DNA from: Shinella zoogloeoides
GTDB taxonomy: Bacteria > Pseudomonadota > Alphaproteobacteria > Rhizobiales > Rhizobiaceae
Assembly: GCF_033705735.1 (NCBI RefSeq)
Contig: NZ_CP131132.1
Location: forward strand, 124,001 to 188,000
Reading direction: 5' to 3'
Length of the DNA: 64,000 nt
Shown here piece by piece: positions 41,451-64,000 of the stretch. A program made the position numbers and the translations under genes. The notes below the pieces were generated by a model. The model made no database searches. It was not told where the DNA came from and saw only the letters and a program-made list of their open reading frames with translations. Position 1 is the stretch's first letter; each line of letters begins with the position of its first letter.

Positions 41451-41539
41451 GGTCGGAATACAGTCTCAACGAATGAATACGCCGCCTGAAAGGATCTCGA
41501 AAGCCGCAGGCCCAGCCTTCGCCGGTTGTTCGGTGTCCC

Positions 41540-43830
41540 AGGAATACGCCGGTGAGATTTATGCCCCAGCCGAGCGGTGAGATGCGCCCCGTGCCAGCAC
41601 CCGCTGGCGGAGATAGACGGTGTTCCGTCGAAGATGGCGCTGACCACGCAGGTTTAGCCCGAAGCCACGGAACGCCTGTCGTCGCGATACCGATCCGAGC
41701 GTCGCGCTCGCGGAAAGAAGACAGCGCGTTTGAGTTGTAGCGGCTTCGCCATTTCGGCCTGGCAGCGCCAGGCGCAAGGCCGGTTTGAATACCATTCGAT
41801 CACGAACAAGGCACGCCAATACGGCCGAGCCGCGCAAGGCTTCGGCGAGATCACTGACTTCGATCTACGGTTGGATGGTCGATGGCGCAACGGCCCGTGT
41901 CGATCGACAAGACGCAAGAACTCGCCCGCTATGATGAGATCGGGAATTGATCGGCACACCAATGTACCAGCTCCGGCAGGCATCCGCTTTCTCAAACGTA
42001 CGGGAATTTCCGGTCCCGCTGCACGAGAGAAGCGCCTGTTGATAATCGCCACCACGCCGGTGTCGGTGAATCGCCCCTTCGATGTCGAGGTCGCAGTCGA
42101 ATAGGGCCAATGAATATAGACGGCCTCGCCTCGGCCGGCTGATGGCGCGGATGCCAATACGTACTGGTCAGAAAGTTTCGCTGCCTGATCCCGGTTCATG
42201 GGTCGCAGGTTGATGTCACTGCGCTTGGCGGTTCTGCTGCTGGCGCGGAATTGCAGACGCGGTCGTTCGTCGTCCAGTTCTGCGAACGCGGACGCCGCGT
42301 GGGCATCGGCGACCCACGCCTGCGCCCGACAGTTCTCCGAGCGGGCGGAGTTCCGGTGGGCGCCGATACCTTGAGGGCCTCGCGCTTCGGGCCGATTGCG
42401 CCATCCGCCGTGTCGCCGCCAGCGGCGATGTTTTCGCGGCGCATTCCCGTCTGGACATCGGTACGTCGGCAAACACTTCCCGGCACTGACAGCGGATACA
42501 TACTCCAGGATTCGAGTATTCGGCCGCGGCGGGAACGTCGCCTGCATGTGGCGTCACGATCGCGTGCCCTCTCCATTCCGACGCCATCTTCGAAACGGGC
42601 TGCCAAATAACCGCCTGAGGTTGACATCCGTCCGGCGAATTCGCGAAAGCCGGGTCGCCTGGGATCATCGAGGTCGAGTTCACCAGCATTGCCGGCTCGG
42701 CACGGTTCGTCTATCGGCCGGAACGACCACGTCCGCGAATCTCCAGTCGGTCTGAATGCGTAAGCGTCGCGATCTCAATGTCGATCCGGTTTTCCATCCT
42801 CGAGGTTGATCAATCCGTTCCCAGATGGCCGATAACGCGATCCGCAATATGACCATCACGCCATTTCATCGATCGTCATGGATCGTGTCGACGAAGCGAA
42901 GTGAACGAAGTGGCTCCCGTGAACTCGTGATATGCCCTCATTACTCAAGGGCCAGCACCAAAGGCGAAGCGTCGCTGCTCTTCTGATCTGCGTTCTTCGC
43001 CCGACTTTCCGATTTACCATCTCGATCGCGTCTCGTCGGCATCATTGGCGGCGCTGCAGCGCCAAAATCGCATCAGCGAATCAGTCGCAGTGCTCCACGT
43101 TTTCCACGCGGGTGTCTGCGCTTGTTGTTGACCCACGGGCCCATCACGATGAACATCATCACCGCGCCGCAGCCGTCGATACCGCGCGGCGACGGTTGGC
43201 GCTGAGCCGGTACAGGCCGGTGTTGCCTCCTCTCTATCATCGTCCCACTTCCCATCGCGCCTGTAACGGGGATCAACCAGCGAGCGCACGAAAGGCGCCA
43301 CGCCTTTCGTCAAGCCGACGCGGTTCCGTTTCGGCAGGAACGCAGCCAATGATAGCGCGTTCAAACCCGGATCGCTAACGCCTAACAGGGCATCTGAATT
43401 TCGCCTGAATGCGATCCGACAGCGCGCGCTCAGCGCGACGGTAATGGCACGCGCTGCCAGCTTCCATGCCCCATACCACCGCCGGGCAGGGCGAACCCGG
43501 CGCTCCCGGTACGCGGTAATGATCACTTTGCGATCGGCGCCCTGCGTTCGATGGCCAGTCGCCGCACGACGATCATCTGCGGCCGGTGTCCCGCCATTTC
43601 CAGATAACCGAGCAGATGCGACGGGAACCATGCGCGTCCCCGCCACGATAGCACCACTCGAATGAGCAGGGTCGGCGCCGATTTGCCCAGCGGCACATAG
43701 CGGCATCGCCTTTGGGAGGCGCCTGCTGGCCATGAGCGCGCGGCCGGGTTAGCGCATCAGGTACGCACCGCAAAGCCAAGCCGATTATACCGCGTCGGCA
43801 ATCCTCGATTGCCGATCGGCCGGCGATAGG
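41540..43830 (-). pseudogene. tnpA: Noisy mirror copy of Tn3 transposase
   Basis: Reverse-complement counterpart of the transposase at 61,156 onward. For example, 42,540-42,660 matches 62,690-62,830 and 43,000-43,090 matches 62,150-62,230. It supplies the missing C-terminus: the frame near 41,540-41,590 reads back as LLG-rich sequence ending in PLGW...TGxY-type residues. Frames are broken throughout. Confidence 0.8.
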
Positions 43831-44019
43831 CTTTCAGAAAGCTCCCGTCGATCCCATTGAGCAGGGCCCGCCGGGCCACCGCCTACAACAGGCGCTGGCG
43901 GGTCAACGCCTGTAGCGGAAACGGTCGATTTCGCACAGGGGCGCAAAACAGTTCGTCCACCGGGTTGATTGATGCTTTTGAACAGGCGGATATTCGACAC
44001 CTTACCGGGATCGCGCCCG

Positions 44020-44440
44020 ACAATGCGCACCTTGCCTACGTCCGCACCATCGCGATCGGGTAAACCAATCGAAAACCAGATTCAGAAATGAAGTCGCCGG
44101 CTAAAACATGCCGCGCCGATCGTCACCGAGACGTCGTTATACAAGCGCCGCGTTTCCCCGGCTTGGCGACGCTGTGCCGATCGCACTGCTGATGTCGGCC
44201 GCCATGTCACCGGGCGTGCGCAAGTTCATTGCCCAGCCGGCGGCACAGCTCGGCCGGCACGATGACCGCGACCGGGGCCAACGCCGTCGCCGCGATTGAT
44301 CGAGCGGATAGCGCGCCAAATCGTAGCGTAGGCGGCCTGCCGATGCTCAGCGACAACAGAGCAGATGCGCGACGATCCCGCAACTGGGATGAAGGGGTGG
44401 TTTCAGCGATGTACATGGCCGTCGTATGCGGGTCTGCCCA
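44020..44440 (+). pseudogene. tnpR: Noisy mirror copy of Tn3 resolvase
   Basis: Counterpart of 60,408-61,001. Near 44,023 the bases CACCTTGCCTACGTCCGC and ATCGGGTAAACCAATCGAAA match the clean gene's start region with small indels. It is on the plus strand, as expected for the mirrored arm. Confidence 0.75.
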
Positions 44441-44493
44441 CGGCTACGCAGTTCCGACCCCCTGGGAAGTCGCGATATTCACAGGGGAACGCA

Positions 44494-45230
44494 ATGAAAA
44501 TGATCACGCCACGGCCGGTGACAGCCGGTCTCGCCGGTCACGACGGCTCGTCCGATATGGTGAAGTGAAGGCGTGGGTACTGCGGCACGGACAACACGGC
44601 GCCCGGCTCGGCCATGACGACCGGCCAGACGGAAGTTCTCGACAGCCCTTCAAAGCGTTCTCGGCGACGTCTTCGAGCGTCAAGTCTGTCACCGTCACCG
44701 GACAACTGGCTGACGCAGTGCTCACCAACTGTCGACGTCACCCGGCACACGACCATCAGGCCGGCGCGCGAATCCGATCACCGGAGCTCGTCGATCAACT
44801 TCTACGATGGGCACGGGCAGGCGAAGACGATCCCGGCGTCACTGCTCGATCCTCGACGGCTTCACGACGCAGGGCTCCAGACCGAGCATGCCTCAAGGCA
44901 CGCGGCTGGGAAGGCCTAAGGTTTCGACCTACGAGTCCTCGAAAGCTTCGCCGCCCTCCCGGCCGCCGCGGAGGAGCGGACACCAGGTCACGTTGGCCGA
45001 AGCCCGACATCCCGCCCGACACGCCGACGCCGCGCGAACGATTCCTGCTGGCGCAACGCCGCGCCAACGCGAACTGAGACCACCCAGGCAAACCGAGGAG
45101 AAGCCGAAGAGCGAAGACTTCTTCGCCATGGCAAATTCGACGACTGCGCGCAAAGCTACCGGCGTTCACGGCGACCCACATCGTAATTCGGGCCGAACAC
45201 CAAGATGTTCCTCGACCGCCGAACGCCCAG
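44494..45230 (+). pseudogene. aapJ: Noisy mirror copy of aapJ
   Basis: Counterpart of 59,308-60,339. The leader ACAGGGGAACGCAATGAAAA is identical to the clean copy, and the following signal-peptide region is recognisable before frames break. Confidence 0.75.
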
Positions 45231-45322
45231 CGGCGGGTACCGATCTTGCTCGCCGCCCTGGAACTCGATCTTCCCCATGACCGGGCGGCACGCCGCCCCG
45301 TCCCTCCTCGGCCCTGGTACGA

Positions 45323-46440
45323 CATGACCGCACCAACGCGCCTGGAAATGCGGCTGACGACCAGCCTGGCCCGGCCGCCGGCGCAACTGATGGCGCCACT
45401 TCCAGTTCGCCGATCGCGCTCGCTGTCGTCCTGGTGGTCCTCTTGCTCCATGCGGTAGCGAAGGCTTGCCTGGCATGGATCACCCGGCTTCGACAGCGAG
45501 CAGCAAGACCTTCGTCGCCGACGGTGGCGCTGGCCACCACGGGATTTCGCCGGCCGGGTGCAGGCCTTCGTCGCAGGGCATATTCACCGTCGATCAAGGT
45601 CGCCGTCCTCGCCATCGCGCTCACCGCCGGTACGAGCTGGTCGCCGGCCTCGACGAATGCAGCACCTCCTGGTGCGCGAGTTCGGGGCACGCCGCTTCCT
45701 GATCTGGTGCTTCGGTCTCGGTTGGGCCGCCGCCGTCCTTCCCGTCGATATCGCCGCCGGCCAGTTTCATGGTCAGCCAGCAGGGCCCGTGCCGGCGGAT
45801 TCGACGCTCGCCGACCGGAACCGCGACCGCGGCTCCTGTTGCGCCGGCCTGATCTCGACCGCCACAGTTCGCTGGACGAGCGCGGCGCGGTAGCCTGTTC
45901 GTCGGCATCATCGCTGACCGGCATCTGGGCCTCGCCCGTCGAGGTCCTGCGCGCGGCAGCCCGCCGCGGCCATCACCGCTATTGAGCTGCGCGGCGCCAT
46001 CGACGCGTTACCGAGCACCGAGGCCGCGGCCTGCTCGCCCCGACAAGCCGGGACGCGGTCAACGATAAAGCCCGCGTCGTCGTCCAGGCGACAGCTCCGG
46101 CGAGCATCCATCGGCTATCCCGAACTCTTCAACACTCCACGGCACCACCGCACCGGTCACAGCCCGAAGGCACGCATCGATGATGTTCCCAGTTGGCCGA
46201 GCAGTCGGCTGGCCGATCGCCTGGATGAACGGGAGTCTGCGCGATCGCCAATTCCCTGAAACGGCAGCCTGGCAAACCGTTCGACGCCCCGCTTGACAGC
46301 ACGGCGCAACGGGATATCGACCGCGGAGCCAGCGTGCCAGATCGGTATCTTCCCAGCCGATCCGCATGGCGCTTGGCTGACGTCGTTTATGCTGCGCCGG
46401 ATGCGTTCGCATTCAGGATCAATGCCGTCGCTACGTTCTC
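45323..46440 (+). pseudogene. aapQ: Noisy mirror copy of aapQ and truncated aapM
   Basis: Counterpart of 57,760-59,241. The start ACGACATGACCGCACCAACG near 45,317 aligns with the aapQ start region. Near 46,090-46,440 the aapQ end and aapM start are recognisable (SYPELFN, then GIFPADPHGAW-like residues). Frames are broken. Confidence 0.65.
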
Positions 46441-46459
46441 GCAGTGATCGCACACGCTT

Positions 46460-47835
46460 GAACCACGGCCATACCACCCTCGCCGCTACGCCATGCTCTG
46501 TTTCGTCGCACGACCGCTTCGACTCCGGCTGAAGAACGAACGGTCAAACCGCCAAGGGCTTCCATCGCGCGGGCGCTCAAAGCTCATTTCGGTTCGATCG
46601 ACTACCGCCAAGCTGTTCTCGCAGGGAACGAAAGCCCCGCCATCACATCAATGTCTCGATGATTATCCAGCCATGAAATAGAGCGATAAAAGACCGGTTT
46701 CTCCCTGCGGAAAGCGATCTAGATTTATCGCCAGACGCCGTTGCGGCGGCACCTGGCCTCACCAGGGCAATGCGACTGCTCTTGTGCGATCGAGATAACC
46801 TGGCGTCTCTGCATCGGTTTTCGGGTTAAGGAGCGCAACGAGTGGGAAGCTCAGGATAAATTATACAGTGGATCAGCAGCCCCAGCAGCGGGGCAGGATA
46901 AATTTCACTGATCTGCGATCGTGTTGATGGACTGACCAGGTCGTGAGACGCTGTACGACCTCTTCATGCTCAATCGCATGGGCGCTGTTCAGCGTCAGTT
47001 CGCCTGGCCCCTGCCCCGCTTGCAGATAGAAGACCACGGGCATCCGCGTTCAATTGCTTCGTGCCGCCGTATGCCCGGCGATTTTCACGGGCCTGCGCGA
47101 AGCGCGCTGGGATCGCGACGGCATAGTGGTGCCAGCGGTACCGCGAGATGCGCGGGATCGTAAACTGTCAAGCGTCGGTTCATCCACATGATCCGAAGGC
47201 ATGGGATCAGACCACAATATTCGCCAGCAATCATGCGGCCATCGCCGTGACGGCGAATAGCGACCTTCGCCGCGTCCATCGCCTTCCTCTGGCTTGCGGA
47301 TGTCTTCCGCCGGCTGGCGCGAACATCGATCACGCGGCTTTTTCGGGTAAGCGCCGCCAGCCAAGCGCGCAAAGGTTTTCCCGGCGGATGGCTTGCGGAG
47401 CGGTAGCGGCGCCGCCGACAATACACCAAAATCCACGAGCAGCCGCGGCCGAATAGTTAATGGCGTGCCGACAGCGACGCCGCAAGGTCCGACTTGATCC
47501 AGAGTCCACCGCCATTGCGGCGATGATTTCGAAGGGTCGGCGAGACGAGCTTCCATGGGCTCATATTTTCTCACAGAGAGCCGCCATGTGGACGTGCTCA
47601 TCGAGCACCGAGACCTGTACATCGTGAGGGATATTCGCGTCCCATAGCTCGCTGGCGAAGTTGTCGCTCTGGAGGGTACGTCTTACCCGTATCGCATGAA
47701 GGTAATCCGGCGGCGCTGGCGGCGCACGCCCTTCGCCGGGCCATCCCTTCCATGGTCACTGGCGGTGCGGCCGGATTGCCGGTACTGATGCGCAACGCAT
47801 GGATCTCCATGACTGACACCATTGGCTTCCGATCA
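46460..47835 (-). pseudogene. Noisy mirror copies of three phage-type genes
   Basis: Counterparts of 55,940-57,755. For example, 47,180-47,260 (CATGATCCGAAGGCATGGGATCAGACC) mirrors the junction at 56,735-56,765, and GGCGGCTTTTTC near 47,335 mirrors 56,530. Nothing here resolves the frameshift seen in the clean copy near 57,485. Confidence 0.65.
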
Positions 47836-47839
47836 CTGG

Positions 47840-48162
47840 TCCTCGCTGGCATGGCCGAGGCCGAGCTTGATCATCTGGTCTGCAATGTTCTGAGCGCCGC
47901 GTCATCACCCGTACCGTGCGGGCCATGATCTTCGCCTGGATCTCGGCATTGATGCCGGGCGTGCCATGAGACGCCGAAGGTTAGTGCGCGATCCGCGCGC
48001 CGCCCTGTTCTTCGCCAGCTTCGGTGTCATCGACGATCCGGTATTCTGGTGCCGTCCCGCCATCTCCATCGACGACGCAGGCTGACCTTCGCCGGTGATC
48101 GGCCATTGATCCTGCGTGTTGCTCGCGGGTGGAGTGCCGGCGATCCCAGCTCTGATATGCAA
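47840..48162 (-). pseudogene. Noisy mirror copy of the SNase-like gene
   Basis: Counterpart of 55,505-55,924. GATATGCAATTTGCCCTTCA near 48,154 mirrors its start, and GGCCATTGATCCTGCGTGTT near 48,102 mirrors the end of its signal peptide region. Confidence 0.7.
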
Positions 48163-48171
48163 TTTGCCCTT

Positions 48172-49242
48172 CAATTGTCCTCAATTTCGCCTTCGCTGCC
48201 AACGCATCACAATCGCGCCGGCATCCACCGAGGTAGCATTACGGGGGAAGAGGCCGTTCGATCTCCAGTGTACGAGCGCTCTGAAAACGGGCTTTCGCCC
48301 GACTTAGGCCGGGTCCGCGATTTCCGTATAGCTATGCGCCTGATCTGGCTCGACTGTTGCCCGGCGTAGCCGAGCGAGATTTTTAACAGGTTTTCGAGAT
48401 TTTGACGGCGGAAGCGCACTTGCTTGAGCGCGCAGTCTGCTTGAACGCCCTGTCGCCGTCATCTCGCGCCATATTCCGCCACTGTCACACCGACCGGCGA
48501 CCTTGCCCGTCCGAAGGACGCCACGGCCACGTGCGCCCGTGGTCGGCCATGGGCAGGGGCGAGCCTTGCAGTACGCTCTCGAAGGCGACGGCCGGTAGAT
48601 CTTCGACGGCGCGTTCTCGATAGACAGAGGGCCGCTCACGAGCGCTCCGCGCTTCAAGAGGTGTCTGCGGCCGGAATAGTTTTCTGCGATCTACTTGCCG
48701 TGGCATAGGCACAGGTCGCGGTGTTGCTCAACACCGCATCTCGACAGGATTGATCGGGCGGTACCTTCGGGCGGTGACGGAAAGCGCTGCTCATCATCTG
48801 TTCCGCAGCGCTCGCCAGACGGTTGCCGCCCAGAACGGCGTTGCCTTGCGGTTTCGCGCAGCATTGCCCAGCCTGACCGAGCCCGAGGCCGCGCTTATGG
48901 GCTGGTTCCAGCCGGGTGACAACGATCGCGTCGCTCTTCTTTCGAGCGCCTGAAGCCGCCAGCCAAACGGTACCGGCGCGGGTTCGCCAAATGCCGCGAG
49001 ATTCAACTGCGTACGCAGAGGCGGTCGAGGACCCAACGGCAGCGCCGGGTGATAGGTTTCTGGGCCATCAGGCCTGCATTGTGGTATGCGAGGCATAGCG
49101 TTCGCGCGTCGATCGGCGGACCTGTCCGCAAATCTCTTCCCCATTCCTTCCCAAAGGTCGGCGGTCATCGGTGCCGGCCGTCAGGTTTGCAATCAGCAAC
49201 ACCGGGTGACGGCCGGTTCTGCGGCTGCCACCAGTTCTTCGC
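48172..49242 (-). pseudogene. telA: Noisy mirror copy of the telomere resolvase gene
   Basis: Counterpart of 54,017-55,492. The 3' end (TTCAATTGTCCTCAATTTCGCC near 48,172) and the 5' end (CAGTTCTTCGCGTTCACTGAAC near 49,227) are clear. The middle carries many deletions and no intact frame. This should not be counted as a second gene. Confidence 0.75.
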
Positions 49243-49279
49243 GTTCACTGAACCACTCTGATGTAACACCGGCGAAGGC

Positions 49280-49485
49280 TTCACGAGCCACTGCGGTCTT
49301 CGTCGCCGACTGCGAAAACCACTGCTCACCTTCGATAGTGTACGGCACCTTTGTTAAGGAGTTGATCGGTCAGTGACTTCCGGCAGATCGGTTTCCACGA
49401 TCTTCGGTGCAGTTAGCCTGTCGTCTTCGAAATGATTATCCATCAATCTGATGACGGGCGTGTGAACGGCGGGGCCTGACGTCAT
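49280..49485 (-). pseudogene. Noisy mirror copy of the 77-aa gene
   Basis: Counterpart of 53,725-53,958. The start region GACGTCATTTGCGATCTCCT near 49,478 mirrors CAAGGAGATCGCAAATGGCA. Confidence 0.7.
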
Positions 49486-49637
49486 TTGCGATCTCCTGAT
49501 TGCTGGAGGCAGAATAAAAATAAAAGATATGGTCGGCAACATGCTTAAAATAACGACCGCCTATCTTTAATAAACTGAAGGGAGCAAAGCCCGACCATGC
49601 TCCTTGTAGCGCGTAGCGTCACATGCTACATAGGAGC

Positions 49638-50110
49638 ATGATATCGGCTTTCGACACAGGCTCTGAGACTTTGGCTCTGCTCCGCGGTCTCAAGGTCCAT
49701 GCTTGCTGTCCCGCCCTGCTGCCCAATGCAGCGGCATCGCCCGCCGAACTGGACCAACAGCCTACAAGTTACCACCCTTGAAGGCATTGGTCGATATGGT
49801 AAATGGCACCGGAGGGTTACTTCGGCTTGTCGGAAGCCGACGTGGAGCTGGCGATCATGGATTATCACTGAAGGAGACATACAGCGATGAAGAACCATCT
49901 CATCTCGCGAGCGTTTCCCCGCGAGGATACCTTGGTGACTACCGACGCGGCGCAGCGCTCCGCGCTCTCCGGACATCAATCGGAAGGCTTGGCATTGGTC
50001 TCGATACGATCCGGTTAACGTGCTGGCGTCAGCACCTGCGAACTTTGGATGAATTCCGCAGTTGAACTACGAACTGTTCAGGCCGAAGCGTGATCGGGCC
50101 GGTGCGAGGC
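49638..50110 (+). pseudogene. Noisy mirror copies of higB and higA
   Basis: Counterparts of 52,989-53,567. The leader CACATGCTACATAGGAGCATG at 49,620-49,640 and GAAGGAGACATACAGCGATG near 49,870 match the two clean start regions almost exactly. Confidence 0.7.
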
Positions 50111-50192
50111 CATCGGCAGCGGCTTCGGTGGAATCGTTCGTCTGATTTGGCACGCCCAGCGTTACAGTTCCTTGAATATCGAGGGAACCAAG

Positions 50193-51057: not shown

Positions 51058-51377
51058 CCTTTCGTTAGGTATCAGCGCCACTATAGTTTGAGGCCGCAGG
51101 CGGTCAACATAGTAAAATAACTGAAAATACCTTATGAGTCAGGCGATTAGCGGGGCTTGCGCCTAAAAAATATCAGGCATATTGAGACCATGAGCGGGAA
51201 AGCGGCTCCACTGATGACGACGACGAGAAAAAAGCGAGAAAAATAATTGCTGATTCCGAGCGCAGAAACGGCCATAGATTAAGCAACGCGCAAGAAAAGT
51301 AAAAAAATCGCGATATGGGCGATAAAAGTAAAAATAATGCTTGCTCAGTAAAAAATAGCTGCAATATAGTAATATAT

Positions 51378-51421
51378 GCGTTTAACACAAAACTACACCG
51401 GTGTAGTTTTATATTAAACGC
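51378..51421. other. Palindrome at the symmetry axis: candidate hairpin telomere
   Basis: The core at 51,389-51,410 is a perfect 22-bp palindrome: AAAACTACACC at 51,389-51,399 followed by its exact complement GGTGTAGTTTT at 51,400-51,410. It extends to 44 bp (51,378-51,421) with two mismatched pairs (C for T at 51,386 and 51,388), both on the noisy side. The axis of the ~10-12 kb inverted repeat passes through its centre. Telomere resolvases cut and rejoin palindromic sites of this general size to make closed hairpin ends, and such a gene lies 2.6 kb away. I infer that this is the hairpin end written out as read through. Confidence 0.75.
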
Positions 51422-53567: not shown

Positions 53568-53574
53568 ACTCCTA

Positions 53575-53600: not shown

Positions 53601-53724
53601 AGGGCATAATCGGGCTTTGCTCCCTCAATTTAATAAAATAAACAGTCGTTATTTTTACTTTTTATGTTGCCGACCATATATTTTTATTTTATTCTGCCTC
53701 CATAGTCATCCAAGGAGATCGCAA

Positions 53725-53958: not shown

Positions 53959-54016
53959 GCGGCTTCATGAAGCCTTCGCCAATGATCACCGCACATCAAG
54001 GAAATGAGAAAGTTCA

Positions 54017-55492: not shown

Positions 55493-55504
55493 AGGGAGCA
55501 AGAA

Positions 55505-55924
55505 TTGCATATCAGAGCTGGAATCGCTGCTCTCGCAGCACTCACCACCTCATTACCCGCAACAGCACAGGATCAATGGCCGATCTGCACTACGGGCAAG
55601 CGGATAACCTGCATCGTCGATGGAGACACGTTCTGGCGGGACGGCATTAAGTACCGGATCGTCGGTTATGACGCACCAGAAGCTGGCGAAGGCGCTCGTT
55701 GCGGTCAGGAGCGAGCGCTTGCGGATCGCGCTACCCAACAGCTTCAGCGTCTCATGAGCACGCCCGGCATCCAATACCGAGATCAAGGCGAAGATCGCTA
55801 TGGCCGCGTGTTGACGCAGGTGATGACGCAGCATGGAGACATTGCAGACCAGATGATCAAGCTCGGCCTCGGCCATGCCTATCGCGGAGGATACCGTGAT
55901 CGAAACCAATGGTGTCAGTCGTAA
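55505..55924 (+). CDS. Secreted SNase-like (thermonuclease family) protein
   Basis: A 139-aa protein with a TTG start at 55,505 (after AAGGGAG), giving a signal peptide (IRAGIAALAALTTSLPATA). The SNase core follows: CIVDGDTFWRDGIKYRIVGYDAPEAGEG (Asp and Glu near residues 58-61) and DQGEDRYGRVLTQVM (Arg). The active-site pattern looks complete. Four cysteines are present, which suits a periplasmic protein. Small SNase-like proteins of this kind occur on conjugative plasmids and rhizobial accessory elements. It follows telA by 12 bp and is probably cotranscribed. Confidence 0.8.
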   Translation: MHIRAGIAALAALTTSLPATAQDQWPICTTGKRITCIVDGDTFWRDGIKYRIVGYDAPEAGEGARCGQERALADRATQQLQRLMSTPGIQYRDQGEDRYGRVLTQVMTQHGDIADQMIKLGLGHAYRGGYRDRNQWCQS

Positions 55925-55939
55925 ACCGGAGATCCATCA

Positions 55940-56743
55940 ATGCGATTGCACACAGCCCTCGAACACCTGAAATCCGGCCACTACCGCTCAATGGAGCCAT
56001 GGAAGGCCAATGAGATCGATGAGATGGCCCGGCATGTTGAGGCGTGCGCCGCCAGCGCCGCCGAATTTACCTTCAGCTTTCTCGATGCAGACCCCAAAGA
56101 CGATACCCTCCAAACATTCATAGACTTTGCCAACGAGCTATGGGACGCGGAAGTTGCTCCTATCCCTCACGATGTTTTTTGGGTCTCGTGGGTGCAGAAG
56201 GTGCTCGATGAGCACGTCCATATGGCGGCTCTCTGTGAGAAAAATATGAGCCCTATCGATGGAAAGCTCGTCTCGCTTTCCGTGCGCGTCATGTTCGAAA
56301 ATCATCGCCGCAATGGCTTGGTCTTCCTGAATCAAGTCGGACAGAGAGTTTGCGGCGATCACAAGCACGTCCTTGTCAGCCACGCCGACAACGATTCGAC
56401 GCAACTGCTCGTGGACACGGGCTTTGGTGTGTCAGCGGCGCTGATCGGCGCCCTTGCCACTCCGCAAGCCATCCGCCGGGAAGAGCCTGCCCCGGCGCGC
56501 TTGAACAAGCAGCGCTTGCAGAAGAAAAAGCCGCCTATTGGCCCAATGATCGTGATCGATGTTCGCGCCAGCCAACAGGCATCACAAAACCGGAAGGGAG
56601 AGGGCGGCTGGACCGTCAAACCACACTGGCGAAGAGGTCATATTCGCCATCTGGCTGATGGCCGCATGATCCCCATCCCGCCTTGCTGCGTCAATATGGA
56701 AACAGGCATTCCCATCAAGCCCGAATATGTTGTGAAGGTCTGA
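55940..56743 (+). CDS. Phage-type hypothetical protein, 267 aa
   Basis: Starts ATG 55,940 after CCGGAG, 15 bp after the nuclease gene. The body is mixed helix (HTALEHLKSGHYRSMEPW at the start). After about residue 170 there is a linker with PAPARLNKQRLQKKKPPIGP. It ends WTVKPHWRRGHIRHL, then DGRMIPIPPCCVN. This N-(R)-KKKPP...PHWRRGHxR C-terminal layout is one I associate with unassigned proteins of phages and plasmids. Its role is unknown. It suggests that the telomere end derives from a phage-plasmid-like element. Confidence 0.65.
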   Translation: MRLHTALEHLKSGHYRSMEPWKANEIDEMARHVEACAASAAEFTFSFLDADPKDDTLQTFIDFANELWDAEVAPIPHDVFWVSWVQKVLDEHVHMAALCEKNMSPIDGKLVSLSVRVMFENHRRNGLVFLNQVGQRVCGDHKHVLVSHADNDSTQLLVDTGFGVSAALIGALATPQAIRREEPAPARLNKQRLQKKKPPIGPMIVIDVRASQQASQNRKGEGGWTVKPHWRRGHIRHLADGRMIPIPPCCVNMETGIPIKPEYVVKV

Positions 56744-56747
56744 TCCC

Positions 56748-57002
56748 ATGCCTTCGGATCATGTAGATGAACCGACGCTTGACGAGTTTACGATCCCGCA
56801 CGTCGCCTTCGCGGCCGCTGAGCACTATGCCGTCTTTCCTACCGCCGAGAAGCACGAGCTGATCCAAACTCTCAAGCGCGATGTTGAAGCGCGCTTCGCA
56901 CGAGAACGTGAAAATGTCGCCGGACATGCGGCGGCTTTGAAAGCAATTGAAGACGCGGATGCCCGTGGTCTTCTGGAAGTGATCTACGGGCAAGGAGACT
57001 AG
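56748..57002 (+). CDS. Hypothetical protein, 84 aa
   Basis: Starts ATG 56,748, four bases after the previous stop, with GAAGG upstream. Predicted mostly alpha-helical (KHELIQTLKRDVEARFARER). It ends two bases before the next start. No family recognised. Tight spacing indicates one operon from telA onward. Confidence 0.6.
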   Translation: MPSDHVDEPTLDEFTIPHVAFAAAEHYAVFPTAEKHELIQTLKRDVEARFARERENVAGHAAALKAIEDADARGLLEVIYGQGD

Positions 57003-57004
57003 AA

Positions 57005-57755
57005 ATGGAGACAGGCGAGAACTTTACGGCGCTGAACTATAGCGCCCATGCGATTGAGAGCATGAAAGAGGTCGTACAGCGTCTCCCCCCGCATTTTGTT
57101 CAGTCCATCAACGCGATCCGCATCGTCAGCGATATGCTTCGCAGATCAGTGAAATTTATCCTGCCCAACTGCGCAGAGCTGCTTGATCCGCTGCACGTAT
57201 CGCAAGCGCACATAGACCTCCTGAAGCTCCCCTTCCCGCTCGTTGCTTTCGAAGCTCCTTGGCAGAAAACCGATGCAAAGGACGCGGGTTATCTCGATCA
57301 CTACAAGTCAACCCGTCGCATTGCCCTTTGTTGGGAGCCAGGTGCAACGCCGCCGCAACTGGCGCATCTCAACGTCATCCTAGATCGCTTTCCGCAGGGA
57401 GGCGTCTTTATCCTTCCTATTTCATGGCTGGATGTCATCGAGACGTGGAATGTAGGTATCGGCGGGGCTTTCGTTCCCTACGAGAACAGCTTGGGCAGCA
57501 GTCGATCAGGCTCAAGTCAGCCCTTTGAGCGCCCGCGCGATGGAAGCCCTTAACAGCGCCGGTTTGCTGCCCAAAAAGCCGCAGCAGTTTGCAGCAGAGC
57601 CGTTCATTCTTCAGCCGGAGCATTTCGAAGCGGTCATTGCGAGAAGCGACCGTGAAACCGGATTCGCGAACATAATGAACGACACGAGGGATGAAGGTAT
57701 GGCCGTGGTTCAAGCGTGTGCAGTCCTCAACTGCGAAAACGTAGCGACAGCGTGA
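57005..57755 (+). pseudogene. Phage-type hypothetical protein, frameshifted and truncated
   Basis: The first frame runs from ATG 57,005 (after AAGGAGA) to a stop at 57,551, 182 codons. Its last ~25 residues (Ser/Arg-rich) look wrong. Another frame overlaps from about 57,485 and reads smoothly as TAWAAVDQAQVSPLSARAME, then LLPKKPQQF and FANIMND, ending CAVLNCENVATA at 57,755. This fits one ~250-aa protein with a one-base shift near 57,485. The end at CENV resembles phage proteins that normally continue with an LNKxRxKxxKPP tail, as in the gene at 55,940, so the 3' end was probably cut off by joining to aapM DNA. Confidence 0.5.
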
Positions 57756-58036
57756 TATTTCCTGAATGCGAACACGCATCCGAGCCCCGCACCAACCATG
57801 GCAGCGACGATCATGATCGCGACCCAAGCGCGCCATGCCTGATCGGCTGGGAAGATACCGATCATGAGCACGCGCTGGCTCCGCGGAATGATATCCCATT
57901 GCGCTACCGTCAATGCCCAGCGGACGATCTGCCAGATGAGCCAGAGAACACCGGGGATGACCGTAAGAGACAGAAGGGCGTCGAACGGTTTGCCGAACAG
58001 GTTGTACCGCGACCATTTCAGGGAATTGGCGATCAT
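57710..58036 (-). pseudogene. aapM: AapM, truncated general L-amino acid permease
   Basis: Starts ATG 58,036, overlapping the aapQ stop (ATGA). About 90 residues look like AapM's N-terminus (MIANSLKWSRYNLFGKPF, then LLSLTVIPGVLWLIWQIV as a membrane segment, and a second hydrophobic segment AWVAIMIVAAMVGAGLG). It then runs into unrelated DNA and stops at 57,710. Full AapM is about 380 aa. The break lies near 57,760, and no aapP follows. The permease pair AapQM cannot assemble from this locus, so the transporter is dead unless a second copy exists. Confidence 0.8.
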
Positions 58037-59241
58037 CGCGAGGCTCCACGTTTGGTCATGCGGCGGTCGGCCCAGCCGACGGCGGCGCTTATGGCCCAGC
58101 TGAGGATCAGATAGGACATCATCACGATCACGATGCCTTCGAGGCTGTGACCGGTCTGGTTGGCAATGGTGCCGTAGATGTTGAAGAGTTCGGGATAGCC
58201 GATGGCGATGCCCAGCGCCGTGTTCTTCGCCAGGCTGATATACTGGTTGCCGAAGGACGGCAGCACGACGCGGAAAACCTGCGGCAGGATGATATCGTTG
58301 ACCGCGTCCCGGCTTGTCAGGCTGAGCGAGGCCGCGGCCTCCCATTGCCCCTTCGGCAACGCGTCGATGGCGCCGCGCACGATCTCCGCGATGTAGGAAG
58401 CACTGTTGACGACGATGGCGAGGAGGAGCGCGGCCATTTCAGGGCTCATGCTCGAGCCGCCGCGCGCCTGGAACTTCGAGGCGACGGGCACGTCGAGGCC
58501 CAGGATGCCGGTCGAGAACATGATGCCGGCAAGCAAGACTACCGCGCCGGCGCAGATCCAGCGGACAGACTTGTGGCGGTCGAAAATCAGGCCGAGGAGC
58601 GCAACCCAGAATGCGGTCGCGGTTCCGATGGCGAGCGTCGAATCCCCTCCCTGCCAGGTGGGCACGGGGAAATAGAGGCCCTGCTGGCTGATCACGACGC
58701 CATAGAACTTGGCGGCGGCGGCGATCGGCGGGAAATGCAGGACAACGGCGAAGTACCAGAAGACGAGCTGGATCAGGAGCGGCGTGTTGCGCACGAACTC
58801 CACGCACCAGAAGGAGAGATTGCGCACCACCCAGTTCGTCGAGAGCCGGCCGACGCCGAGCATCGTACCGAGCACGGTGCTGAGCACGATGGCGAGGACG
58901 GCGACCTTGATCGTGTTGAATATGCCTGCGACGAAGGCCTGCGCGATCAGGCGGTCCGACGTGAAATCCGTGAAGGCCGGCCAGAAGCCGCCGTCGAAGA
59001 CGAAGGTCTTGCCTTCGCTGATGTCGAAGCCGGCGGCATCCCAGAGGAACGAGAAGCTGAATTTGATCCCGTGACGGGCAAGCCCTTCCTTTACCGCATA
59101 GGCAAAGAGGACCACCAGGACGACAGCAGCCGCGATGATGGCGAACTGGGTGGCGTCGTACCGTATCCGGTTGCGCCGGCGGCGGGCCAGAACGTCATCG
59201 TCAGCCGCATTTCCGGGCGCGTTCGCTTGGTGCACAGTCAT
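58033..59241 (-). CDS. aapQ: General L-amino acid ABC transporter permease AapQ
   Basis: A 402-aa inner-membrane protein. A charged N-terminus (DDDVLARRRRNRIRYDATQF) precedes the first membrane helix (AIIAAAVVLVVLFAYAV). Later parts include LSFWCVEFVRNTPLLIQLVF and the ATPase-contact loop YIAEIVRGAIDALPKGQWEA, containing the EAA-type motif. Length and layout are those of intact AapQ. It lies 66 bp after aapJ on the same strand. Because aapM is truncated and aapP missing, this copy probably no longer transports. Confidence 0.9.
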   Translation of the reverse strand: MTVHQANAPGNAADDDVLARRRRNRIRYDATQFAIIAAAVVLVVLFAYAVKEGLARHGIKFSFSFLWDAAGFDISEGKTFVFDGGFWPAFTDFTSDRLIAQAFVAGIFNTIKVAVLAIVLSTVLGTMLGVGRLSTNWVVRNLSFWCVEFVRNTPLLIQLVFWYFAVVLHFPPIAAAAKFYGVVISQQGLYFPVPTWQGGDSTLAIGTATAFWVALLGLIFDRHKSVRWICAGAVVLLAGIMFSTGILGLDVPVASKFQARGGSSMSPEMAALLLAIVVNSASYIAEIVRGAIDALPKGQWEAAASLSLTSRDAVNDIILPQVFRVVLPSFGNQYISLAKNTALGIAIGYPELFNIYGTIANQTGHSLEGIVIVMMSYLILSWAISAAVGWADRRMTKRGASR

Positions 59242-59307
59242 GTCGAGATACCAGAACCGAGGAAGGGACTGGGGCGGCGTGCCGCCCCGGTCCGGTCATG
59301 GGGAAGA

Positions 59308-60339
59308 TCAGTTCCAGAGCGGCGAGTAGATCGAGCCACCCTGCGACCACTGGGCGTTCGGCGTGCCCTTGCGGTCGAGGAACATCTTGGTGTTCGGCCC
59401 GAGGTTACGGTCGTAGATCTCGCCGTAGTTGCCGGTAGCCTTGATCGCCTGCGCGACGAAGTCGTCCGGAAGGCCGAAGTCCTTGCCATAGCCGCCGCCG
59501 ACGCCGAGGAACTTCTGGACGAAGGGATCTTCGCTCTTCAGCTTCTCCTCGAGATTTGCCTGGGTAATCTCGGATTCTTCAGCCTGGAAGAGACCGTAGG
59601 TGATCCAGCGCAGCGCGTTGCGCCACTTGGAATCGTTCGCCGCGACGAAGCCGCCGAAGGGCGACTTGTCGAGCGTGTCGGGCAGGATTAGGTAGTCGTC
59701 GGGCTTCGGCGAATTGCCGGCCCAGGCGGCGAGCGCGGACTTGTCGGTGCTCATCGCGTTGCAGCGGCCGGAATTGAGGGCGGCGAAAAGCTTTTCGAGG
59801 TTTTCGTAGGTCAGAACCTTAGAGCCTTCCCAGCCGCGTGCCTTGAAGGCGCTGGTTAGGACCGTCTCGGTCACGGAGCCCTGCGTCGTGCAGAAGGTGG
59901 CGCCGTCGAGATCGGCGAATTCCTTGACGCCGGAATCCGTCTTCACCATGATGCCCGTGCCATCGTAGAAGTTGATCGGCAGGAAATCGATGGTGATCGA
60001 GGATTCGCGCGCCGGCTTGATGGTCGTGTGCGCGAAGACGACGTCGACCTGGTTGGTGAGCACTGCGTCGAAGCGGCTCTTGTCCGTGACGGTGACGAAC
60101 TTGACCTTCGAGGCATCGCCGAGAACGGCGGCCGCGACGGCGCGGCAGAAATCGACGTCGAGACCTTCCATCTGGCCGGTCGTCGTGTTGAGGTAACCGA
60201 AGCCGGGCGCCGTGTTGTCCGTGCCGCAGTTCAGCGTACCGCGTTCCTTCACCGTATCGAGGACGGAGGCCGATGCGTGACCTGCGGTAAGAGCGAGACC
60301 AGCAAATGCGCCGGCCGTGAGAAGCTTGATCATTTTCAT
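59308..60339 (-). CDS. aapJ: General L-amino acid-binding periplasmic protein AapJ
   Basis: A 343-aa solute-binding protein starting ATG 60,339 after AGGGGAA. It has a signal peptide MKMIKLLTAGAFAGLALTAG followed by HASA. The mature part begins VLDTVKERGTLNCGTDNTAP and contains GQMEGLDVDFCRAVAAAVLG and LDGATFCTTQGSVTETVL, as in AapJ/BztA. It ends with the family's WSQGGSIYSPLW. It is upstream of aapQ as in the aapJQMP operon. A Tn3-type inverted repeat ends 35 bp before the start codon, so the native promoter is gone; readthrough from the resolvase gene is the likely source of any expression. Confidence 0.92.
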   Translation of the reverse strand: MKMIKLLTAGAFAGLALTAGHASASVLDTVKERGTLNCGTDNTAPGFGYLNTTTGQMEGLDVDFCRAVAAAVLGDASKVKFVTVTDKSRFDAVLTNQVDVVFAHTTIKPARESSITIDFLPINFYDGTGIMVKTDSGVKEFADLDGATFCTTQGSVTETVLTSAFKARGWEGSKVLTYENLEKLFAALNSGRCNAMSTDKSALAAWAGNSPKPDDYLILPDTLDKSPFGGFVAANDSKWRNALRWITYGLFQAEESEITQANLEEKLKSEDPFVQKFLGVGGGYGKDFGLPDDFVAQAIKATGNYGEIYDRNLGPNTKMFLDRKGTPNAQWSQGGSIYSPLWN

Positions 60340-60374
60340 TGCGTTCCCCTGTGAATATCGCGAGCGCCCTGCAA

Positions 60375-60412
60375 GGGGTCGGAACAAGATCTGTTCAAAA
60401 TCCTGCGCTAAG
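60375..60412. repeat. Terminal inverted repeat of Tn3-family transposon
   Basis: 38 bp beginning GGGGTCGGAACAAGATCT and ending TGCGCTAAG, the length and end pattern of Tn3-family repeats. The opposite end lies outside the window, but its noisy copy begins GGGGTCGGAA at about 41,452. TGCAA (60,370-60,374) beside it would be one half of the 5-bp target duplication. The repeat overlaps the last codons of the resolvase gene. Confidence 0.8.
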
Positions 60413-61001
60413 GTCGAACGGATCGTGAACCCTCGTCTCGAACCCGCATAATGGTTTGACGACTGGTCATGAATTTCCTGGCGATCGCTGAAACGCTCAT
60501 CCCAGTTGCGAGATCGTCGCGCACATCCTGCTTCTGTTTGTCGCTGAGCGTCGAGGGGCGGCCGAGGGCCTTTCCTTCCGATTTGGCGCGCTTGAGACCG
60601 GATTGCGTCCGCTCGATCAGCAAATCGCGCTCGAACTGGGCGACGGCGTTGAGCACGGTCATGGTCATCGTGCCGGCCGAGCTGGTGAGATCTGCGCCGC
60701 CGAGCGCAAGGCAATAGACGCGCACGCCCATTTCGGCCAGAGCCTTAACCGTGGTGCTGACGTCGATCGCATCGCGGCCGAGGCGATCAAGCTTAGTCAC
60801 GATTAGAACGTCGCCGGACTCCAGCTTGTCCATAAGCCGGGAAAAGCCGCGGCGCTGCGCAATGGCGGTGCTGCCGGAAATCGTCTCGGTGACGATCCGG
60901 CGCGGCTCGACCTGAAAGCCGGCGGCTTCGATTTCCTGAATCTGGTTTTCGGTGGTTTGCCCGATCGTGGAGACGCGGACATAGGCAAAGGTGCGTGGCA
61001 T
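60408..61001 (-). CDS. tnpR: Tn3-family resolvase (serine recombinase)
   Basis: A 197-aa serine recombinase: AYVRVSTIGQTTENQ carries the catalytic Ser11. TKLDRLGRDAIDV holds the conserved Arg residues, AQFERDLLIERTQSGL is the long E-helix, and the C-terminal helix-turn-helix is MSVSAIARKFMTSRQTIMRV. It resolves transposition cointegrates at res and usually represses its own and the transposase promoters. It diverges from tnpA. Its 3' end overlaps the transposon's terminal repeat. Confidence 0.93.
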   Translation of the reverse strand: MPRTFAYVRVSTIGQTTENQIQEIEAAGFQVEPRRIVTETISGSTAIAQRRGFSRLMDKLESGDVLIVTKLDRLGRDAIDVSTTVKALAEMGVRVYCLALGGADLTSSAGTMTMTVLNAVAQFERDLLIERTQSGLKRAKSEGKALGRPSTLSDKQKQDVRDDLATGMSVSAIARKFMTSRQTIMRVRDEGSRSVRP

Positions 61002-61155
61002 AGGTCGAATTTCGTCCGAATAGGATGTCCGAAATATCCCGCCTGTTCAAAAGCATGTCAAGATAATTTGTGGACAGGCTGTTTTGCCCCTGTACGAAAT
61101 CGACCGTTTCCGTACAGAGGATTGGCCACCAGCGTATGTTGTAAGGAGTAAAACG
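61002..61155. promoter_or_regulatory. res site / divergent promoter region
   Basis: The 154 bp between the divergent resolvase and transposase genes is where Tn3 elements place res and both promoters. A dyad CTGTACGAAA...TTTCCGTACAG spans 61,090-61,117, and a looser one (TTTCGTCC...GTCCGAAA) spans about 61,008-61,033. These are candidate resolvase subsites. A ribosome site (AAGGAG) precedes tnpA at 61,143. Confidence 0.55.
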
Positions 61156-64000
61156 GTGGCCCGGCGGACCCTTCTCAAGCCTCAGGATCGACAGGAGCTT
61201 TTCGACGTTCCAACCGACGAAGACAGCCTGATCCGCCATTATTCCCTATCGCCGGCCGATCGACTTGAAATCGAGATTCGCCGACGCGAGCATAATCGGC
61301 TTGGCTTTGCGGTGCAGCTCTGCCTGATGCGCTATCCCGGCCGCGCGCTCATGGCCAACGAAGCACTCCCAAAGGCGATGCTCCACTATGTTGCTGAGCA
61401 AATCGGCGCCGACCCTGCTTCATTCGAGTGGTATGCCCGTCGTGAAGAGACGCGCATGAACCACGTCGCGCATCTGCTCGGTTATCTGGAAATGAGGACA
61501 CCGGCCGCAGATGATCGTCGTGCGGCGTTGCTGGCAGCCATCGAGGCCGCCTCAACAACAGATAAGGGAGCGCCGATCGCAAAAGCGATCATTACCGCGT
61601 ACCGGGAGCGCCGGGTTCTCCTGCCGGCGGTGAACATGATGGAACGCATGGGCTTGGCAGCGCGTGCCATTGCACGCCGTCGCGCTGAGCGCGCGCTGAT
61701 CTCGGATCTCGATTCGGAAAAGCTCGAAACCCTAGATGCCCTGTTAGGCGTTGATCCGGCGATCGGACAGACGCGCTATCATTGGCTGCGTTCTGCTCCA
61801 GACGCACCGGGAGCGGGGAACCTGGTCGGCTTGACGGAGCGTATCGCCTTCGTGCGCTCGCTGGGGATTGATCCCCGTTTACAGGCTCGCATTCCTTCCG
61901 GGAGATGGGACCAGATGATCCGTGAGGGGGAGGCAACGCCAGCCTGGCTTGCCAGTGACTTCAGCGCCAACCGTCGCCGCGCGACAATCGTTGCGCAGGT
62001 CATTAAAGTCGGCCAGAAGCTTACCGACGACGCGGTGATGATGTTCATCAAGCTGATGGGCCGGCTGTTCTCTCAGGTCAACAACCGGAAAAAGCAGCGC
62101 CACATGAACACCCGCGTGGAAACATCCAAGGCACTGCGACTATTCCTTGATACGATTTTGGCGCTGCAGGCCGCCAATGATGCCGACGAAGACGCGATCG
62201 AGATGGTAAATCGGAAAGTCGGTTGGCATAGGCTGCTGCAGATCAAGCCTGGTCTCGAGGCGATGGTGGAAAGCAGCGACGCTTCGCCTTTGGTGCTGGC
62301 CGCTGAGCAACATGGGAATATCCGCAAGTTCGCAGGAGCCTTCCTTCAGGCGTTCACGTTCCACTCGCGTCGCCGACACGATCCGCTGCTCGCGGCGATC
62401 GCGACTCTGAAAATGCTTTATGTGGAAGGGCGTCGCATCTTGCCGGATCGCGTGCCCGTCGGCCATCTGGGAGCGACCGAGAAAAAGTTGATCTTCGAGG
62501 ATGGAAAACCGGATCGGCGGCTTTACGAAATCGCGACGCTTACGCATTTGCGAGACCGACTGAATTCGCGAGACGTCTGGGTCGAGGGTAGCCGGTCATT
62601 CCGGCCGATAGACGAACATCTCATGCCGAAGCCGGCCTTTGTCGCCCTGAAGGAGGAAAATGAACTCGGCCTCGGTGTCCCGAGCGACGGTGCGGCTTGG
62701 CTCGCGGAAGTTCGCCAGATGATGGATGTCAACCTCAAACGGTTGGCTTGGCGAGCCCGTTTCGGGAAGCTCGATGGCGTCAGAATGGAAGACGGCACAC
62801 TGATCGTGACGCCACATGCAAGCGACGTTCCCGCCGCGGCGGAAGCTCTCAACGCCGAAATCACGGAAATGTATCCGCTGGTCGAGGTGCCGGACCTTCT
62901 CAGGGAAGTGCATGAATGGACCGGATTTGCCGACCAGTTTACCCATGTCCGGACGGGAGATGCGCCGCAAAACATCGCCGCTATGCTGGCCGGCGTTTTG
63001 GCGGATGGCACCAATCTCGGCCCGAAGCGTATGGCGGGAGCCTCCAAGGGTATCAGCGCCCACCAGATCGGCTGGATGCGCAGCTTCCACGCCCGCTCGG
63101 AAACCTATCGGGCCGCGCAGGCGTGCGTCACCGATGCCCACACGCGGCATCCGCATTCGCAAATTTGGGGCGACGGAACGACCGCGTCGTCTGATGGGCA
63201 ATTCTTCCGCGCCAGCGACAGGGCCGCCAAGCGCAGTGACATCAACCTGCATTATGGCAGCGAACCGGGATCGAAATTTTACAGCGGGCTTTCTGACCAA
63301 TACGGCTATTACAGCATCCTGCCGATCAGCCCGACCGAGAGCGAGGCCGTCTATGTGCTCGATGGCCTATTCGACCACGACACGATCCTCGACATCGAGG
63401 AACTGTTCACCGACACCGGCGGTGTCAGCGATCAGCTCTTCGGGCTTTTCCCCATCGTCAACAGGCGCTTCTCGCCTCGCATGCGTAATCTCAAGGACCG
63501 GAAATTCCATACGTTTGAGAAAGCGGATGCCTATCCGGAGCTGGCTAAACACATTGGTGTGCCGATCAATTCCGATCTCATCCTGGAGCATTGGGACGAG
63601 TTCTTGCGTCTTGGCGTATCGATCACGACACGAACCGTTGCACCATCGACCATCCTGAAGTGGTGCTCATCGTCAAAGTCCAGTGATCTCGCCAAAGCCT
63701 TGCGCGAGCTCGGCCGTATTGAGCGTACCTTGTTCATGATCGAATGGTATTCAAACCCGGCCTTGCGCCGGCGCTGCCAGGCCGGGCTCAACAAGGGCGA
63801 AGCCGCCCACAAGCTCAAACGCGCTGTCTTCTTCCACGAGCGCGGCGAAATACGGGATCGATCCTTTGACAGCCAGGCGTTCCGTGCTTCGGGGCTAAAC
63901 CTCGTGGTCAGCGCCATCGTTCATTGGAACACCGTCTATCTCAGTCGCGCGACGGCACACTTGCGCCAGCGGGGTCGGCATATTCCCGACGAGCTGCTGA
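61156..64000 (+). CDS. tnpA: Tn3-family transposase, 3' end outside window
   Basis: An open frame of 948 codons from GTG 61,156 (after AAGGAG) to the window edge, with no break. The N-terminus has the family pattern (LIRHYSLSPADR, RRREHNRLGFAVQLCLMRYP). The catalytic triad is legible: Asp680 in TTASSDGQFF, Asp753 in ELFTDTGGVSD and Glu882 in GLNKGEAAHKLKRAVFF, with spacings close to those of characterised Tn3-family enzymes. The end reached is the conserved ASGLNLVVSAIVHWNTVYL region, so only about 40 residues are missing. It performs replicative transposition using the 38-bp repeats. Confidence 0.95.
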   Translation, partial: MARRTLLKPQDRQELFDVPTDEDSLIRHYSLSPADRLEIEIRRREHNRLGFAVQLCLMRYPGRALMANEALPKAMLHYVAEQIGADPASFEWYARREETRMNHVAHLLGYLEMRTPAADDRRAALLAAIEAASTTDKGAPIAKAIITAYRERRVLLPAVNMMERMGLAARAIARRRAERALISDLDSEKLETLDALLGVDPAIGQTRYHWLRSAPDAPGAGNLVGLTERIAFVRSLGIDPRLQARIPSGRWDQMIREGEATPAWLASDFSANRRRATIVAQVIKVGQKLTDDAVMMFIKLMGRLFSQVNNRKKQRHMNTRVETSKALRLFLDTILALQAANDADEDAIEMVNRKVGWHRLLQIKPGLEAMVESSDASPLVLAAEQHGNIRKFAGAFLQAFTFHSRRRHDPLLAAIATLKMLYVEGRRILPDRVPVGHLGATEKKLIFEDGKPDRRLYEIATLTHLRDRLNSRDVWVEGSRSFRPIDEHLMPKPAFVALKEENELGLGVPSDGAAWLAEVRQMMDVNLKRLAWRARFGKLDGVRMEDGTLIVTPHASDVPAAAEALNAEITEMYPLVEVPDLLREVHEWTGFADQFTHVRTGDAPQNIAAMLAGVLADGTNLGPKRMAGASKGISAHQIGWMRSFHARSETYRAAQACVTDAHTRHPHSQIWGDGTTASSDGQFFRASDRAAKRSDINLHYGSEPGSKFYSGLSDQYGYYSILPISPTESEAVYVLDGLFDHDTILDIEELFTDTGGVSDQLFGLFPIVNRRFSPRMRNLKDRKFHTFEKADAYPELAKHIGVPINSDLILEHWDEFLRLGVSITTRTVAPSTILKWCSSSKSSDLAKALRELGRIERTLFMIEWYSNPALRRRCQAGLNKGEAAHKLKRAVFFHERGEIRDRSFDSQAFRASGLNLVVSAIVHWNTVYLSRATAHLRQRGRHIPDELL

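Follow-up and report, generated by a model that had tools for sequence, protein, structure and literature searches.

What makes a bacterial contig turn back on itself at a palindrome and repeat its sequence in mirror image? The question is raised by a 64,000-nucleotide stretch of the Shinella zoogloeoides genome (hereafter the window), which covers positions 124,001-188,000 of contig NZ_CP131132.1 (here C3), a 221,542-bp contig that is one of four in the 5.79-Mb assembly GCF_033705735.1. An original prediction, made from the letters of the window, read the turn as a hairpin telomere, that is, one covalently closed end of a linear replicon that had been read through during sequencing and assembly. 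The sequence supports this reading, since C3 contains a second mirror axis, two records from another genus turn at the same base, and more distant relatives share the telomere core. Taken together, these observations make it very probable that the window contains one end, named T2, of a linear plasmid of ∼119.8 kb with two covalently closed hairpin ends.

Two mirror axes in one contig

Comparison of the window with itself bore out the mirrored arms of the prediction, with about 10 kb of noisy sequence on the left and 12.6 kb of clean sequence on the right, and resolved them into an inverted colinear series in which positions 41,610-51,400 matched positions 51,400-63,942 at ∼74-92% identity per piece. 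The 22-bp perfect palindrome at 51,389-51,410 was present as described, with the axis at 51,399/51,400. However, the poor copy was not confined to the 41,452-51,399 of the prediction, but spanned the whole window to the left of the axis, and broken genes in this region should therefore not be taken as pseudogenes. One check set by the prediction was a turn-back at the second end of the replicon; such a turn was found at C3 73,651/73,652 (axis 1), 101.7 kb from the axis of the window at C3 175,399/175,400 (axis 2), and was centered on a 56-bp perfect palindrome (T1) whose core is the 22-bp palindrome of the window.

When C3 was compared with itself, a clean stretch, A (1-73,651), was found to be mirrored by A′ (73,652 to about 138,250), and B′ (about 138,305-175,399) to mirror a second clean stretch, B (175,400-221,542). 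The order along the contig is A (clean), T1, A′ (noisier), B′ (noisy), T2 (in the window) and B (clean), which is explained by a single walk round both strands of a closed-tip molecule, T1-A-B-T2, that started in its interior. The contig anatomy shows that both strands are laid out as one contig with two mirror axes, and the linear replicon it implies measures 73,651 + 46,143 = 119,794 bp. Of the two copies, one is clean, whereas most of the other retains a raw-read error pattern, with A′ 12% shorter than A and B′ 20% shorter than B. The poor copy is also uneven, A′ having 97% identity to A in a single 20-kb stretch (C3 76,281-95,674) against 74-87% for most of the rest. Errors in six sampled pieces of B′ amounted to 16% deletions, 6% substitutions and 3% insertions per clean base, a profile that we read as that of unpolished long reads.

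The telomere site and terminal inverted repeat

The two sides of the T1 palindrome read GGCGGCGCGTTTAATATAAAACTACACC and GGTGTAGTTTTATATTAAACGCGCCGCC, meeting at the axis. Perfect even palindromes with arms of at least 11 bp occur only twice in C3, both times on the turn-back axes, and the two occurrences of ACACCGGTGT in C3 are likewise the two axes. With up to 3 mismatches allowed, the 22-nt half site had four matches in the 5.79-Mb genome, all of them at the two axes, and a reversed-pattern control had none. All known protelomerases cleave with a 6-bp stagger according to passages of one report (PMC3558466), and, by analogy, the stagger in T1 and T2 is presumed to lie at ACCGGT.

The first 6.35 kb inward from T1 and from T2 agreed at 99.89% of positions, with five small gaps, and a multiple alignment placed no substitution between the two C3 arms until column 6,354, where they diverge. 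This terminal inverted repeat (TIR) includes the telomere resolvase gene, which is thus found at both ends of the plasmid. A cluster of TTTTTACT repeats close to the T2 tip (Table 1) provides possible binding sites; elsewhere in arm B, over 45.5 kb, the motif has one forward and one reverse copy. When 74 bases of noisy subtelomeric sequence were used as the query, a distant search of the plasmid collection returned no match. The annotation of a related plasmid, described below, places a HigA antitoxin and a RelE/ParE toxin inside the TIR.

The telomere resolvase

The resolvase gene that had been predicted 2.6 kb from the axis was borne out by a match of its product to the Pfam domain ResT-TelK_cat (PF16684; Table 1). 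The closest solved structures were entries named ‘Protelomerase’ (E about 2e-45), which we take to be TelA, in keeping with published passages on that enzyme. The TelA catalytic residues Arg255, Lys286, Arg366, His394 and Tyr405, as given in passages of PMC3558466, align to R275, K318, R415, H443 and Y454 of the window protein and are invariant in the 14 aligned rows, and a histidine occupies the position of TelA Tyr363. Against the TelA equivalog NCBIfam NF052462 the protein scored 199.3 bits, which is under the curated cut-off of 800 bits.

All five PF16684 matches in this genome were on C3. Among 21 genomes of the genus, only this one matched (0 of the 20 others), and the larger samples, of the family, the order and the class, gave 9 of 297 genomes (8 over the cut-off), 1 of 397 (the window’s own genome) and 3 of 385 (its own included), respectively. 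A 12-kb piece of the 1.89-Mb chromid contig was most similar to Shinella sp. PSBB067 (92% over 64% of the query), in keeping with Shinella as the likely host; on this result and the genus count, Agrobacterium was rejected as the host. In a tree of 29 of the resolvases found, the window protein was placed with those of Agrobacterium deltaense EL101, Mesorhizobium denitrificans LA-28, Candidatus Tokpelaia sp. JSC161 and Microvirga in a single 16-row group with support of 100/99, which stands apart from two Agrobacterium tumefaciens rows when the tree is rooted at its midpoint.

A near-identical plasmid in Rhizobium oryzihabitans M15

According to the prediction, turn-back points scattered over many positions would indicate a library or assembly artefact. 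They were not scattered, as two records of Rhizobium oryzihabitans M15 turn at exactly the same base, after position 8,058 of p5 (NZ_CP048637.1, 339 kb) and position 9,865 of p6 (NZ_CP048638.1, 62.9 kb), where the p6 axis is a 1,076-bp perfect palindrome. Passages of the M15 report describe a PacBio plus Illumina assembly and a 16S that is 99.64% similar to that of R. radiobacter (PMC7232506). We observed that the stretches in front of the axes, 1-8,058 of p5 and 1-9,865 of p6, resemble hairpin read-through, and that the first 10 kb of p6 are the mirror of the arm at the other end.

Beyond its axis, p5 follows arm B and then crosses from the end of C3 into its start at p5 50,856/50,857, with p5 45,929-50,856 matching C3 216,603-221,542 and p5 50,857-60,976 matching C3 1-10,133, so that the join of B to A is shown independently. 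Arm A is followed from its tip by p6, for 41.6 kb at 99.6% identity. Both records part from C3 within arm A, p5 at C3 10,133 and p6 at C3 32,073, and both copies of a 1.66-kb element that is present twice in C3 (212,362-216,630; near-identical copies 0.9 kb apart) are missing from p5. For these reasons, the C3 and M15 plasmids are not one DNA. At the end away from the axis, neither p5 nor p6 showed a tip in the stretch read. A block annotated with toxin-antitoxin, integrase and recombinase genes is repeated in p5 near 61-70 kb and 327-336 kb, and p5 may therefore be a cointegrate or chimera. Near-identical plasmids appear to be present in both genera, and recent transfer between hosts is suggested.

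Relatives with the same telomere core

Searches with the resolvase led to three further records, which contain a palindrome with the same core, located at a turn-back or contig end beside a related resolvase; they represent two resolvase lineages, because the EL101 and LA-28 resolvases are near-identical. The core ACACC/GGTGT (the slash marks the axis), together with a TA-rich stretch beyond it, is common to the window plasmid, EL101, LA-28 and JSC161. In A. deltaense EL101, plasmid pEL101-131 (NZ_CP143887.1) was deposited as a circle of 131,537 bp, with axes at 16,941/16,942 and 103,060/103,061. Its mirrored stretches are 34 and 57 kb long, its axes are 86,119 bp apart and its TIR is about 292 bp, and from this layout it is most likely a linear plasmid of 86,119 bp. 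A gene annotated ‘phage prohead protein’ adjoins its resolvase gene. Contig_19 of M. denitrificans LA-28 starts 43 bp past a tip that is nearly identical to the EL101 tip, and no such telomere motif was found at its far end. Positions 1-34,000 and 38,001-57,575 of this contig were compared with EL101, and identities were 89-96% among the matches listed. LA-28 contig_19 and the A. deltaense plasmid form another cross-genus pair.

The third record is chromosomal. At position 352,442 of the 714-kb contig QEND01000001.1 of JSC161, an ant gut symbiont, we found a perfect palindrome of 4,866 bp with the core ACACC/GGTGT and a resolvase gene in each arm, flanked by genes with ligase, pyruvate-carboxylase, methionine-synthase and acetyl-CoA-synthetase domains. 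Of 22 sampled stretches, which together cover 420 of the 714 kb, the 11 to one side of the palindrome all had a positive GC (guanine-cytosine) skew and the 11 to its other side all had a negative one. The main chromosome of JSC161 is probably linear, judging from these features; alternatively, it may be circular, the palindrome being a terminus site that has yet to be resolved. The resolvase is named ‘Flagellar biosynthesis chaperone’ in the source. The genome was sequenced by Illumina and assembled with SPAdes and CAP3 (PMC6044324), and words starting with ‘linear’, ‘circular’ or ‘telomer’ are absent from the main text of that report. Loss of recF, recO, recR and recG is noted there, and RecO_C had no match in JSC161 and one in a congener. 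A RecOR-like role for the annealing activity of resolvases is both discussed and doubted in passages of PMC7861564. Loss of XerC/XerD was considered as a sign of linearity in JSC161 and dropped, as PF00589 was equally unmatched in a congener that lacks a PF16684 match (G026). On balance, we lean toward the view that one telomere system, consisting of this resolvase clade and the ACACC/GGTGT palindrome, travels on linear plasmids between Hyphomicrobiales genera and has entered and linearised the main chromosome of JSC161.

Proposed mechanism and alternative explanations

Replication round the hairpins would produce head-to-head junctions that carry the full palindrome. From its homology to TelA, the plasmid’s own resolvase would be expected to cut this palindrome with a 6-bp stagger at ACCGGT, after which each strand would refold and be joined to its partner, restoring two hairpins. 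During sequencing, reads would pass round the hairpin onto the opposite strand, and the assembler would write both strands as one circularly permuted contig. A linear plasmid of this kind is supported by the two axes in the order A-T1-A′-B′-T2-B within one contig, by TIRs that are free of substitutions and place a resolvase gene at both ends, by the same-base turns of M15 p5 and p6 and the passage of p5 across the C3 junction, by the two axes of pEL101-131 and the tip of LA-28 contig_19, which have the same core, and by the conserved catalytic residues and a gene kit like that of published hairpin plasmids.

Several observations weigh on the other side. Among the C3 resolvase copies, only the clean T2 copy is a single open frame; the T1 copy breaks near codon 332. 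In M15, both copies break near codon 459, and each has one further break, near codon 323 in the T1 copy and near codon 48 in the T2 copy; the break near 459, which is common to three of the four M15 arms, could be real there. Since the places differ between the C3 and M15 assemblies, assembly errors are the simplest cause of these breaks, though some could be real. In addition, 11 other resolvase stretches (L038-L041 and L062-L068) had no telomere-like palindrome in the stretch scanned; four of them, from the plasmid collection, are at most 36% identical to the window resolvase, and the other seven are outside the tree. One of them, L038 from Xanthobacter, has a single palindrome of 26 bp, but it is unrelated and lies 18 kb away from the gene. 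No telomere-like palindrome was present in the short loci L029-L034 either; L029-L033 coincide with L062-L066, and L034 is the LA-28 gene with the tip missing. Finally, an in vivo circular inverted dimer would yield the same contig as a hairpin plasmid.

Such a dimer, in which the molecule is wholly or partly circular and the axes are replicated telomere junctions awaiting processing, is in keeping with the closure of C3 as a circle, its two ends being joined in M15 p5. It is harder to reconcile with the presence of an intact resolvase gene and with the instability of long perfect palindromes in circular DNA. According to passages of PMC7861564, the prevailing model for hairpin replicons has as its intermediate a circular dimer joined by inverted-repeat junctions, but the relatives examined with reads turn at their tips and are linear (passages of PMC13293297). 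We consider the dimer improbable as a description of the molecule.

Fold-back chimeras are common library artefacts, and the left arm is rich in deletions, like unpolished raw long reads. Random fold-backs turn anywhere, however, whereas the PacBio plus Illumina assembly of M15 turns at the same base, C3 has two axes at the same palindrome, and an Illumina assembly from another genus contains a palindrome with the same core. A fold-back or assembly artefact devoid of biological meaning is thus scarcely credible, and a random fold-back chimera as sole cause is ruled out, since independent assemblies share the turning base or motif. Read-through accounts for the noisy duplicate, which is itself artefactual. 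It could also be proposed that the plasmid is a circle with a large inverted duplication that ends at the palindrome, the resolvase having another role, as pEL101-131 was deposited as circular and M15 p5 and p6 as separate plasmids. We give this almost no weight, because the duplication in C3 extends over almost all of the replicon and both of its axes fall on one motif, and because the M15 and C3 variants differ by insertions away from the ends and have the same tips.

Other genes of the plasmid

The features of the window are collected in Table 1. In the M15 p5 annotation, the open reading frame (ORF) at 59311..60714 is a ‘transporter substrate-binding domain-containing protein’, and the serine recombinase is probably from a Tn3-family transposon. 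The gene content of arm A was evaluated from searches with 20 ORFs and from the M15 annotation. Arm A carries a topoisomerase ORF (topA) of 725 amino acids, on the same replicon as the resolvase of the TIR, together with a ParA/VirC1-like ATPase, a MucR regulator and a weak actin-like match (ALP_N, under its cut-off). Domains of the dot/icm type were also present in arm A: DotH/IcmK, DotI/IcmL, DotM_C, TrbI, a T2SSE ATPase and T4SS_TraI.

Table 1. Features of the window (window coordinates; C3 coordinates where stated).
Feature	Position	Strand	Remarks
Noisy copy A′	1..14250 (C3 124,001-138,250)	-	Inverted image of inner arm A, ends in plasmid interior; C3 20-18,411 pairs with 138,248-122,894
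Noisy copy B′	14305..51399 (C3 138,305-175,399)	-	Inverted image of arm B, C3 175,400-221,542
Telomere T2	51372..51427	.	Perfect for 22 bp, axis 51,399/51,400; left side in noisy copy
Clean arm B	51400..64000, continuing to C3 221,542	+	99.9% identical to M15 p5 over the window stretch
Terminal inverted repeat (TIR)	51400..57752, about 6,353 bp	+	From comparison of the T1 and T2 copies
Seven TTTTTACT repeats	51470..51759	+	At most 0.4 kb from the tip; candidate binding sites
Telomere resolvase (protelomerase), 491 amino acids	54017..55492	+	Pfam PF16684, E=7.8e-40
ABC transporter permease	58033..59241	-	First Pfam-matched gene inside the TIR boundary
ORF with transporter solute-binding protein domain	59311..60714	-	Gene proper may start within the ORF
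Serine recombinase	60408..61001	-	Tn3 family transposase annotated alongside in M15 p5

Significance

Hairpin linear plasmids of this kind have been in print since late 2025 (PMC13293297). The additions made here are the telomere core common to these records, the pair of near-identical plasmids from different genera, a plasmid deposited as circular that is most likely linear, and the probably linear JSC161 chromosome; the host genus of the window plasmid is likely to be new for this kind. C3 illustrates how a hairpin replicon can look in an ordinary assembly, namely as a contig that is mirrored and circularly permuted and in which one of the copies is poor, and it carries the warning that frame-broken genes in the mirrored copy are likely artefacts and not pseudogenes. 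ACACC/GGTGT at a turn-back axis beside this resolvase offers a sequence test for missed linear replicons, and pEL101-131, M15 p5 and p6 and, probably, the JSC161 chromosome are examples of such replicons. That a near-identical plasmid occurs in two genera also suggests that linear plasmids of this kind move between hosts.

Comparison with known hairpin replicons

Some phage-plasmids (N15, phiKO2 and PY54) can exist as linear plasmids whose hairpins are formed by a protelomerase that they encode themselves. All three are named in passages of PMC7861564. Among the 10 window ORFs run against PHROGs, the resolvase matched two families of unknown function, phrog_26709 and phrog_5272 (E about 1e-15 and 4e-14), a result that, with the annotated prohead protein of the relative pEL101-131, would favor placing the window plasmid among N15-like phage-plasmids. 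However, a tblastn search with the resolvase had no match in 50,697 phage records at 1e-5, and the resolvase was confirmed in 0 of 15 pattern matches in viral contigs, so that the resolvase has no sequence kin in either set; judged from this gene, an N15-like phage-plasmid is unlikely.

Hairpin linear plasmids of Rhizobiaceae, pLin13.3, pLinAv2 and their kin, were reported in November 2025 by Kuzmanovic et al. (PMC13293297), and passages of that paper also describe a second group, of six, that was found by mining (strains AB3, AC44/96, NCPPB 2655, CECT 9324, T5/73 and one more). The names oryzihabitans, M15, EL101, Tokpelaia and Mesorhizobium do not occur in its main text, and Shinella occurs there once, in the introduction. 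Like the plasmids described in its passages, the window plasmid is linear with hairpin ends (predicted in our case), and carries its own resolvase, topA, par genes and dot/icm type IV secretion system genes. It differs from them in size, at about 120 kb versus about 80 kb, and in its TIR, which is 6.35 kb long with the resolvase at both ends, versus a published range of 1,096-1,248 bp. The Agrobacterium tumefaciens telomere resolvases that we found are 28-29% identical to the window resolvase, and passages of PMC13293297 place the pLin resolvases among those of chromids; for these reasons, the window plasmid is probably closer to the second, mined group.

The linear chromid of Agrobacterium C58 and its TelA resemble the window plasmid in having a resolvase of the ResT/TelK family, hairpin ends and the same catalytic residues. 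In contrast, identity between the resolvases is 28-29% and their places in the tree are separate, the resolvase gene of biovar 1 Agrobacterium lies on another replicon (passages of PMC13293297), whereas the window plasmid has its own gene, and the hairpin core of TelA is TCATGA (passages of PMC3558466), where that of the window plasmid is ACCGGT.

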